From contig JAANXD010000041.1 in NCBI GenBank assembly GCA_018263435.1, forward strand, positions 1 to 44,208: a stretch of 44,208 bases of DNA, in the 5' to 3' direction. Both the position numbers and the translations under genes were made by a program. The stretch is from Candidatus Scalindua arabica (GTDB lineage Bacteria > Planctomycetota > Brocadiia > Brocadiales > Scalinduaceae). Under the pieces are notes generated by a model that saw nothing but the letters and a program-made list of their open reading frames with translations, was not told where the DNA came from and searched no databases. Shown here in pieces: positions 39,124-44,048 of the stretch (position 1 is its first letter; the number at the start of each line of letters is the position of its first letter).

Positions 39124-41229
39124 TTATTTCTTGCCAGCCTTTAGTGATTCGTTTAAATCTACCAGTAACTGGTCTAAATCAGTGGGGTTTATCTTTGTCG
39201 CCTGGCTAATATTGATGGCCCTTGTAAGTGTGTTTCTAAGAATAGGATTCTTGAGCTGAGTAAAACCTTTGCTTACAAGAACGTCTATTGTCTGTGGGTG
39301 TTGTTTTATAAGATGATACACATTTGTAGATGCCGTAACAGCAGCAATTTCCTCATGCGCTTCATCATCTTTAGTACCTTGTTTGCCTTCATTTATAGTC
39401 TTCCAAATGTTGATACCAAACAACAGTATCGCTGTACACTCTATAAAACCACTTATGCCCATTAGCATAAAAGCAGAGCCTGATCCGGTATGAACTGCAA
39501 CCGGTTGGAATATGACCCTTATAGCACAGCCAACATTTATGAGAATAAATATCTTTGTTAGCATTGTATAACTGTGAAGCTTGATACCTTGACTGATGGG
39601 TATGATCCTTGATGCATAACCAAAGATCAACATGCTAATGAATCCTACTGTAACTGCATGTCTATATGCTCCAATTAATGCATGCGAAACAGAAGCGCCA
39701 GCTGCCTCAGAGAAGGTGAAAACTAACATGGCGGCTTCAGCAAAAACCAACCATACAATACCAGCCCAGACAAATTTCTCATAACTCTTCTCAATCTCCA
39801 TTCCTGAAAAATCTACCTCAGGTTTTGTAAATATATTCAGATTATAAATGAATAGCAGAACAAACACAAACTCAAGACAACCCGAGATGAAAAACAGAGA
39901 ACTGAAGATGTAATAGGCCGGCAGACTTACATCTACAAAGTGTGCCATTAATGGTTGAGACGTTGCTCTGAGAATGATTGAAAAATTTAACCCCAGCATG
40001 ATGATCAGGTTCAGTTTTGCATTAGGTGTTTTCAGGCCTAAGAAAGCAGGTATAGTCCTGCTCAGAACACCAAAAATTACCAGGGTTATAAATCCCATTA
40101 CCTGAATATGTCGTAGCGGATATATTAGTATATGAGGCAAAACAGTTTCACCAACTTTAAGCATATATACGGTAGCTCCCGTAAGGACTAATGTCTGCAC
40201 AAGGAACCACAGATAGCCGGAAATCAAGAATCCTTCGTATGTCTCAAGTTCCTGCTTTTCCGCAGCCAGGATGGTCTTTAATGCAACAAAAAGGAATATT
40301 AGTATAGCCAGGATTTCCAGCAGACTACCTGCAATGATGAGTAACTTGAAGAAAGGTGAATTTAAAAGCGGAAGAAGTGTTCTGAATAGAAATACCAGTA
40401 GAATACCAATTACCATGAAATAGAAAGATAAATTAGCAAGTCTTCCACTATACAATTTTATGGCATAAAAACGCGGAATGACAAAGTATGATACACCCAT
40501 AATGAAGAGTCCGCACCAGCCGAAGATTTGCGTGTGGCCATGGGTTTCTATTAAGACCTTTGACACCGCATAAAGAGAGTGTTTCATTCCCATATAGAAA
40601 AGCATGAATGCACCGTAAACACACCCGGTTGTCAGTGCTATGACAATCGCAGTTTTTATGAACTTTTCGTATATATTCTCGTATGCCGTATCCAGGTCTT
40701 CTGGTGAGATTTCCGGCGCTGATACCTTTCCTTGAATAACATCATTAAGCTCCTTGATCAGGCAGTCAGCGTCTACATTATGAACTCTGGCAAAGAAATA
40801 GACTGCCTCTTCAGGGCCGTATTCGCCGCCGCATTCCAGCAGGCCATATTTTGAAAATACACCTTTGGTTTGAGGATAGTTCGTTATAATGTCTTTTACC
40901 GTCACCGTTCCAGTGATTTCCAATTTTTCTGTTCCTGCAGTTTCAGCAACCGGAGGAGGTGTTTCTGTAACTTCATTCCCTGCCGTATCTTCGACTGTAC
41001 TGCTCTGCTCAGTGGTAGATTCCGGTTCTGGAACTACTTCGTTCAGTGCAGCCACCAGTTCGTCAATATTTTTTACATTACAAGATATTGCTGTTTTCTC
41101 AATGCTTTGTACTCCACCACAGCACATGTCAACACCGAACCTGGTAAATACCTTGTCACTTTCTGGATATTTGTTAATTACCTCATTAACAATCATATCC
41201 TTTGTAATCACGGCCTTGTCCGGACTCAT
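39124..41229 (-). CDS. ScdA_N / DUF1858 domains fused to NnrS-like 12-TM membrane protein
   Basis: 701 aa. Residues about 8-65 are an ScdA_N-type domain (MIVNEVINKYPESDKVFTRFGVDMCCGG, C36 C37). A Pro/Thr/Glu linker follows. Residues 107-165 form a second related domain (VKDIITNYPQTKGVFSKYGLLECGG, C133). Then about twelve membrane segments (about 190-635) with three repeats of a His...GF/W...G...(R)xIP motif: THGHTQIFGWCGLFIMGVSYFVIPRF, LRHIQVMGFITLVIFGVLSRTIPAF, YRHAVTVGFISMLIFGYASRIIP. This resembles NnrS and haem-copper-oxidase subunit I-like proteins. A C-terminal DUF1858-like domain (about 635-698) ends the protein. ScdA-type domains act in repair of nitrosative Fe-S damage; NnrS acts in NO tolerance. 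The role is inferred as NO-linked. Confidence 0.75.
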   Translation of the reverse strand: MSPDKAVITKDMIVNEVINKYPESDKVFTRFGVDMCCGGVQSIEKTAISCNVKNIDELVAALNEVVPEPESTTEQSSTVEDTAGNEVTETPPPVAETAGTEKLEITGTVTVKDIITNYPQTKGVFSKYGLLECGGEYGPEEAVYFFARVHNVDADCLIKELNDVIQGKVSAPEISPEDLDTAYENIYEKFIKTAIVIALTTGCVYGAFMLFYMGMKHSLYAVSKVLIETHGHTQIFGWCGLFIMGVSYFVIPRFYAIKLYSGRLANLSFYFMVIGILLVFLFRTLLPLLNSPFFKLLIIAGSLLEILAILIFLFVALKTILAAEKQELETYEGFLISGYLWFLVQTLVLTGATVYMLKVGETVLPHILIYPLRHIQVMGFITLVIFGVLSRTIPAFLGLKTPNAKLNLIIMLGLNFSIILRATSQPLMAHFVDVSLPAYYIFSSLFFISGCLEFVFVLLFIYNLNIFTKPEVDFSGMEIEKSYEKFVWAGIVWLVFAEAAMLVFTFSEAAGASVSHALIGAYRHAVTVGFISMLIFGYASRIIPISQGIKLHSYTMLTKIFILINVGCAIRVIFQPVAVHTGSGSAFMLMGISGFIECTAILLFGINIWKTINEGKQGTKDDEAHEEIAAVTASTNVYHLIKQHPQTIDVLVSKGFTQLKNPILRNTLTRAINISQATKINPTDLDQLLVDLNESLKAGKK

Positions 41230-41436
41230 GAATAAACCCCTTTCGCAATAAATACGATAGAACTTGTTATTGTAAACTGTTGCTTAATTTCTAAAGACAC
41301 TGAATTGATCTACTTATCAGTATACGTGCTATATTATAAGTCGGTTATTATACAAAAAAAAAACTGTAAATCCATTCTAAAATAGCAATTTAAACAAAAA
41401 TGACTTGCAATAAAGTTATTCATGTGATTTATTGGC

Positions 41437-42998: not shown

Positions 42999-44048
42999 AT
43001 GTTTAAGGGAAACTTTTCTGCTACAGCCATAGGCAGTTATCCACATAAGAAAGTGGATGACGCATGTAATCTTATCTTGAATACGCTCACGGAAATACCG
43101 TGTTGGCCACAACTCCCGGAAAGAGATATGAGGGAAGAGATGCTGGTCCAATACACGGAAGGATTGCCTTTTCTGAAGCTTGTTCCGGAAGAGAAGAAAA
43201 TTTATGTAGATATGCCTGAGGATAATACGGATGAATTAGAGTCGTTTTATAACAAGTATTTATCAGAAGATGCCGGTCTCTTTTCTATAAGCGATAGTCA
43301 CGCTGTTGGATTCTCGAACATGATCAGACTTCTAAAGGAGAGGAAACCGGAACACCTGCGTGCGACCAAGGGGCAGATAGTCGGCCCCATAACACTTGCA
43401 GGTACCTTGAAAAATCCGGAGCAGGTTTCCGTACTTCATGATCCGGTTCTTTTTGACGTGATAGTAAAATTACTGGCGATGAAGGCATGTTGGCAGATTG
43501 ACAAATATACTGAATTCGGGCTGCCCACTATTATATTCCTTGATGAGCCGTATCTATCGAGCTATGGTTCGGCATTTGCCAGTTTGAAGAAGGAGCAGAT
43601 TGTTGAATCATTAAATGAGATATTTCTGGCAATTCATAATCGTAAAGCTCTTTCCGGTATTCACTGTTGTGGGAATACTGATTGGACTATGCTCATGGAG
43701 ACTAAGGTAGATATTATAAACTTTGATGCGTATGGCTACATGGATACCATGTTAATATATAAAGACGAGGTTAAATCGTTCCTTGAGAGGGGTGGGATTC
43801 TGGCATGGGGCATCGTGCCTACTACAGACAGTATTAACGAGGTTACGATTGACAGCCTGATGGAAAAAGTTGTTTCCGCCGTAGATTTTCTAGTAGATAG
43901 CGGAATTGATAGAAAACTGGTGATTGAGAACTCATTATTAACTCCAAGTTGTGGTACAGGTGCTATGCCTGTGGAAGAGGCGGAAAAGGCAATGACTCTA
44001 ACCCACGAGTTAACAGTAAAAATAAAAGACAAATACAAAATCATTTGA
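42999..44048 (+). CDS. Core-MetE-like methionine synthase (UROD/MetE-like)
   Basis: 349 aa, about half the length of classical MetE (about 750 aa), so only the catalytic barrel is present. Start ATG 42999, with acggag eight bases upstream. ATAIGSYPHK opens the barrel; GIHCCGNTDW supplies the zinc-binding His and Cys, and LLTPSCGTG the further Cys. TKGQIVGPITLAGTL and DEPYLSSYGS are also MetE/UROD-like. The zinc should activate homocysteine thiolate. Such short MetE proteins are known to use methylcorrinoid rather than folate in some bacteria; that would suit this B12-rich neighbourhood, but is inferred here. Confidence 0.8.
   Translation: MFKGNFSATAIGSYPHKKVDDACNLILNTLTEIPCWPQLPERDMREEMLVQYTEGLPFLKLVPEEKKIYVDMPEDNTDELESFYNKYLSEDAGLFSISDSHAVGFSNMIRLLKERKPEHLRATKGQIVGPITLAGTLKNPEQVSVLHDPVLFDVIVKLLAMKACWQIDKYTEFGLPTIIFLDEPYLSSYGSAFASLKKEQIVESLNEIFLAIHNRKALSGIHCCGNTDWTMLMETKVDIINFDAYGYMDTMLIYKDEVKSFLERGGILAWGIVPTTDSINEVTIDSLMEKVVSAVDFLVDSGIDRKLVIENSLLTPSCGTGAMPVEEAEKAMTLTHELTVKIKDKYKII

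Follow-up and report, generated by a model that had tools for sequence, protein, structure and literature searches.

Nitric oxide (NO) is an intermediate of anammox metabolism (PMC11897245), and how anammox bacteria protect their iron proteins from self-made NO is poorly known. The locus considered here raises the question of whether a single membrane protein could contribute to this protection. It lies in a 44,208-nucleotide stretch of the Candidatus Scalindua arabica genome (the window), in which an intact open reading frame (ORF) with an ATG start at 39124..41229 of the minus strand encodes the 701-aa protein named in the initial annotation. The gene is complete and reads ScdA_N, DUF1858, a core of twelve transmembrane (TM) helices and DUF1858, with orthologues aligning over the full length at 66-91% identity in the Scalinduaceae genomes where the family was found. 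The host genome (2.7 Mb) encodes hydrazine synthase alpha (HZS-alpha), and the host is therefore an anammox bacterium.

The gene and its surroundings

The neighbours of the gene in the window, recN, cobO and thyX, have no link to NO, and neither the locus nor its conserved neighbourhood gave operon or synteny support for an NO-related function. Alignment of the regions upstream of the Scalinduaceae orthologues revealed a conserved promoter-like block, ATTTTAGAATGGATTT...TGTATAAT (41347..41384, minus strand), within the divergent cobO intergenic region of this family, and no NnrR, NsrR or FNR palindrome was seen upstream of the gene when the alignment was inspected by eye. A 349-aa ORF next to thyX (42999-44048, plus strand) is conserved in Scalindua and has no Pfam match at E 0.001.

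Soluble domains

Two ScdA_N/DUF1858-type domains had been proposed at the N-terminus, and the first of these is ScdA_N itself (PF04405, aa 11-64, E 3.6e-12, over the gathering cut-off; 41038..41199, minus strand), with the motif DMCCGG (C36, C37) and a match to the S. aureus ScdA chain 9r7j at E 1.1e-6. It is followed by a low-confidence acidic/proline linker (aa 67-103, 40921..41031, minus strand; pLDDT <50 at 70-101) and then by the second domain (aa 105-162, 40744..40917, minus strand), which is not ScdA_N proper but of DUF1858/TIGR03980 type (TIGR03980 at 1.3e-17, and alignment), TIGR03980 being the hybrid-cluster-protein-associated domain. This domain has the motif ECGG with a single Cys, which the alignment shows to be missing in paralogue B (one of the two Brocadiales paralogues described below). 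The third, DUF1858-like domain was correctly recognized at the C-terminus (aa 632-689, 39163..39336, minus strand); it contains no Cys, is the best of three stretches matched by PF08984 over the gathering cut-off (97 bits, 5e-28) and matches PDB 2fi0 at E 6.5e-15 with the family profile. Three small helical domains are also present besides the TM helices in the AlphaFold2 model. The ScdA_N domain occurs as a tandem duplicate at the N-terminus of orthologues L011 and L012 (G015, G016), and family f2 orthologues (L062, L066, L067) retain N-terminal domains in which the cysteines are absent.

An N-terminal ScdA_N with DxCCGG is shared with ScdA/YtfE (RIC, DnrN), but the 701-aa protein differs from these in having no hemerythrin-like di-iron domain: no Pfam hemerythrin match was found in it, and hemerythrin ORFs exist separately, elsewhere from the gene. 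No second ScdA_N was found anywhere else in the host genome. RIC proteins hold their di-iron site in the hemerythrin-like domain at the C-terminus, and CCGG is dispensable for it (PMC9268430). With this di-iron repair domain absent and CCGG not required at the site, the "ScdA-type repair" originally ascribed to the protein was overstated.

A triplicated membrane core

The AlphaFold2 model, built from an alignment of 31 sequences (mean pLDDT 79), has exactly twelve TM helices where about twelve had been counted, and these are arranged as three blocks of four within a core at aa 186-617 (39379..40674, minus strand). The blocks correspond to three internal repeats on the minus strand, TM1-4 (aa 186-322, 40264..40674), TM5-8 (aa 330-463, 39841..40242) and TM9-12 (aa 482-617, 39379..39786), which align with one another in hhalign at E 4e-13, 3e-16 and 2e-18 (scores 76-104 vs <=17.2 for column-shuffled controls). 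The core is a true internal triplication of a four-helix unit, so the internal duplication suggested earlier was well founded. The three His...G...IP repeats on which it was based are real and homologous, with the motif itself corrected to His, 5 or 7 residues, Gly and then Pro.

Two Pfam families match the core, COX1 at aa 194-415 (E 1.6e-9, just above the gathering cut-off) and, marginally, NnrS (PF05940) at aa 203-611 (E 3.1e-7, 30.5 bits vs a cut-off of 28). Foldseek of the AlphaFold model placed CcoN of the cbb3 oxidases at the top (E 3.5e-10, TM-score up to 0.75 by target), followed by NorB (3.5e-7) and then A- and B-type oxidases, and all matches listed from the PDB were haem-copper oxidase subunit I. 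The proposed NnrS-like core is thus refined to one that is strongly predicted, from the model, to have the haem-copper oxidase subunit-I fold with three-fold pseudosymmetry. When single CcoN and NorB sequences were compared with the full-length protein by hhalign, just part of the core aligned. Since Lys and Arg in the short loops occur solely on the side of the termini, the positive-inside rule predicts a cytoplasmic location for ScdA_N and both DUF1858 domains.

An unrelated transporter, with only an accidental likeness to these proteins, was also considered, given that twelve TM helices are frequent among transporters. The agreement of Foldseek and of the NnrS and COX1 families on one superfamily, together with the conservation of the candidate His ligands, makes this most improbable and it was rejected. 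The NnrS, COX1, ScdA_N and DUF1858 profiles all match above their gathering cut-offs, and the initial observation is confirmed with the small corrections given above.

Histidines and candidate metal sites

Candidate ligands were surveyed in 57 family sequences (29 from Brocadiales and 28 others). H230 in TM2 (40540..40542, minus strand) is present in all 57 and H524 in TM10 (39658..39660, minus strand) in 56, the remaining sequence being gapped. H230 aligns with the TM2 low-spin haem b ligand of CcoN, and H524 has the spacing of the second His of HxH in TM10 of CcoN/NorB; the distances to the next Gly (7 for H230, 5 for H524) are equal in these oxidase histidines, which hold low-spin haem. NnrS also has an invariant His aligned to each site, H67 with H230 and H312 with H524, again with equal Gly spacing. 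The possibility of haem binding raised by the initial annotation is strengthened by this conservation, from which we infer one low-spin haem b with H230 and H524 as its ligands.

Most of the catalytic metal ligands of an oxidase are missing. The TM7 His pair that provides CuB ligands was not found in the family alignment, and Y522 stands at the haem b3 position in place of the active-site haem His of TM10. A bimetallic O2- or NO-reducing site is thus probably absent, and without copper ligands on TM7 or a ligand for the active-site haem the protein is not expected to act as an oxidase or to reduce NO. The reading as a genuine haem-copper enzyme that reduces NO or oxygen and carries fused domains draws on the subunit-I fold and on the COX1 match, but given these lost catalytic ligands, and a TM6 His missing in most non-Brocadiales relatives, it is very improbable and was rejected. 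That TM6 His, H374 (40108..40110, minus strand), lies on or beside a CuB-ligand position and is present in 29/29 Brocadiales sequences vs 1/28 others; in anammox bacteria it may serve as an additional ligand to a metal or haem.

Relationship to NnrS and other known proteins

The 701-aa protein resembles NnrS in its TM2 and TM10 histidines, and hhalign aligns the two over 366 columns (E 1.6e-4, probability 50%). However, the H374-type TM6 His belongs to the 701-aa protein and not to NnrS, while NnrS has its own HEM motif in TM2 and HTG motif following TM10, of which EM and HTG, both invariant among the eight NnrS compared, are absent from the 701-aa protein; the fused ScdA_N/DUF1858 domains occur in none of the eight. 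Without the EM and HTG motifs it is a relative of NnrS rather than a classical member. With CcoN and NorB it shares the three-times-four-helix fold and the low-spin haem ligand positions of TM2 and TM10, and it differs from them in having cytosolic domains, no CuB ligands on TM7 and no ligand for the active-site haem. The DUF1858-core-DUF1858 proteins of Planctomycetota (including Brocadiales paralogues A2 and B) have a homologous core and flanking DUF1858 at 30-47% identity, and in them ScdA_N is absent, separate or C-terminal instead of N-terminal. The gene product belongs to a branch of the NnrS/haem-copper-oxidase-fold superfamily that is found in Planctomycetota and has been little described, with classical NnrS as a distant cousin. 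In line with the initial annotation, which knew of no such protein, the literature searched yielded no published description of this architecture.

Distribution and the origin of the fusion

The family was found in 57/59 Brocadiales genomes, mostly as two paralogues (A and B) whose duplication predates the diversification of Brocadiales in the core tree. The two genomes without it (G019 and G021, family f4) have no ScdA_N either and do encode HZS-alpha. Among 392 sampled Planctomycetota genomes 64 have a match; 29 of these genomes lie outside Brocadiales, a few of them with fragments only, and DUF1858-core-DUF1858 is the usual arrangement of these relatives. Searching plasmids by tblastn with the 701-aa protein and a Phycisphaerae-type homologue gave zero matches. 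The fit to anammox proposed for the protein agrees with HZS-alpha in its host, but the link is weaker than suggested because the family also occurs in other Planctomycetota and is missing from two HZS-bearing Brocadiales genomes.

With respect to the exact architecture, the core with flanking DUF1858 also occurs in other Planctomycetota, whereas within the sampled genomes the N-terminal ScdA_N fusion is limited to Scalinduaceae. In this family (f1) all over-cut-off ScdA_N matches are the N-terminally fused domain and no strong stand-alone match was found, while in families f2, f3 and f5 such matches fall on small separate ORFs, 65-100 aa long. At Brocadiaceae (f5) loci, the counts of which are not independent because the genomes are related, stand-alone ScdA_N lies near formate/nitrite channel genes in 12 of 16 cases, with a SLAC1 gene only at one further locus; the cargo of these channels may be formate. 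ScdA_N with CCGG is C-terminal in 12/28 non-Brocadiales proteins (Phycisphaerae-type). In the ScdA_N tree the Scalinduaceae domain is nested among Brocadiales stand-alone proteins and the C-terminal domains split off (100/99 support, few columns), and so the ScdA_N-core fusion arose twice, independently. On this reading Scalinduaceae have fused to the membrane core a small ScdA_N that exists as a separate product in related anammox bacteria.

Proposed function

We consider it about an even chance (probability roughly 0.5) that this protein holds haem in the membrane, has its thiol domains in the cytosol and shields iron centres from NO, the haem being suggested by ligand conservation. The haem would exchange electrons with, or react to NO at, the membrane and would be coupled to the vicinal cysteines (CCGG) of the cytosolic ScdA_N, which may keep nitrosyl-iron complexes from trapping thiols and iron centres there. 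This mode would be like that of NnrS, with the iron pool protected and NO not consumed: NnrS does not remove NO but guards iron from dinitrosyl complexes (PMC9246220). Furthermore, the NsrR regulon, which responds to NO, contains two genes whose function is unknown, and these are ytfE/dnrN and nnrS (PMC1274295). The two independent ScdA_N-core fusions and the formate/nitrite channel genes beside stand-alone ScdA_N also count in favour. Against NO protection stand the absence of the N-terminal cysteines in f2 forms and of the DUF1858 Cys in paralogue B, the two HZS-bearing Brocadiales genomes in which the family is missing, gene neighbours and an upstream region that show no link to NO, and the chance that the channels carry formate. 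A more specific version, in which a non-reductase haem-copper branch has become a dedicated anammox NO-defence protein, with a bis-His haem wired to vicinal-Cys domains and H374 making a new metal/NO site, is a tentative proposal that we regard as doubtful.

The small domains at both ends would also suit protein interaction, and the lack of a catalytic bimetallic site is compatible with a membrane NO/redox sensor in which the core haem senses NO or redox state and ScdA_N/DUF1858 signal to a soluble partner. A parallel is DrpB of Thermus, for which a role of this kind has been proposed and which shares DUF1858, is membrane-associated and affects nar expression in nitrate respiration, but which at 273 aa has DUF2249 domains and lacks the TM core (PMC6282519). 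However, there is no output domain, the conserved neighbourhood contains no regulator gene, and NnrS relatives are reported as protective rather than regulatory (PMC9246220), so that a sensor seems unlikely.

Alternatively, the protein could be an assembly factor for metalloenzymes such as those of nitrite, hydrazine or nitrate/nitrite turnover, supplying or guarding their iron or haem, with ScdA_N/DUF1858 binding the clients. The derivation of ScdA_N from iron-centre proteins (PMC9268430) and the two paralogues in most anammox genomes favour this, as does an NO cluster of S. meliloti in which a core-like, 12-TM-like protein accompanies DUF2249 and SufT-like genes. The family is also found in Planctomycetota outside Brocadiales, which are not known for anammox, and the enzyme genes are not adjacent, making this role improbable as well. 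The S. meliloti protein (P0002; pSymA L146:23524-26041) is an unannotated 452-aa membrane protein with no Pfam matches, sits between two DUF2249 genes and adjoins the SufT-like gene, and aligns with the 12-TM core in a weak profile match (hhalign E 4e-6). Together with its surrounding genes it is possibly a split version of the pairing of membrane core and small domains.

Returning to NO protection, two independent ScdA_N-core fusions mean that both unknowns, ScdA_N alone and the NnrS-type core, can be tested together. The protein also illustrates how a haem-copper fold that has no catalytic centre can be put to another use.
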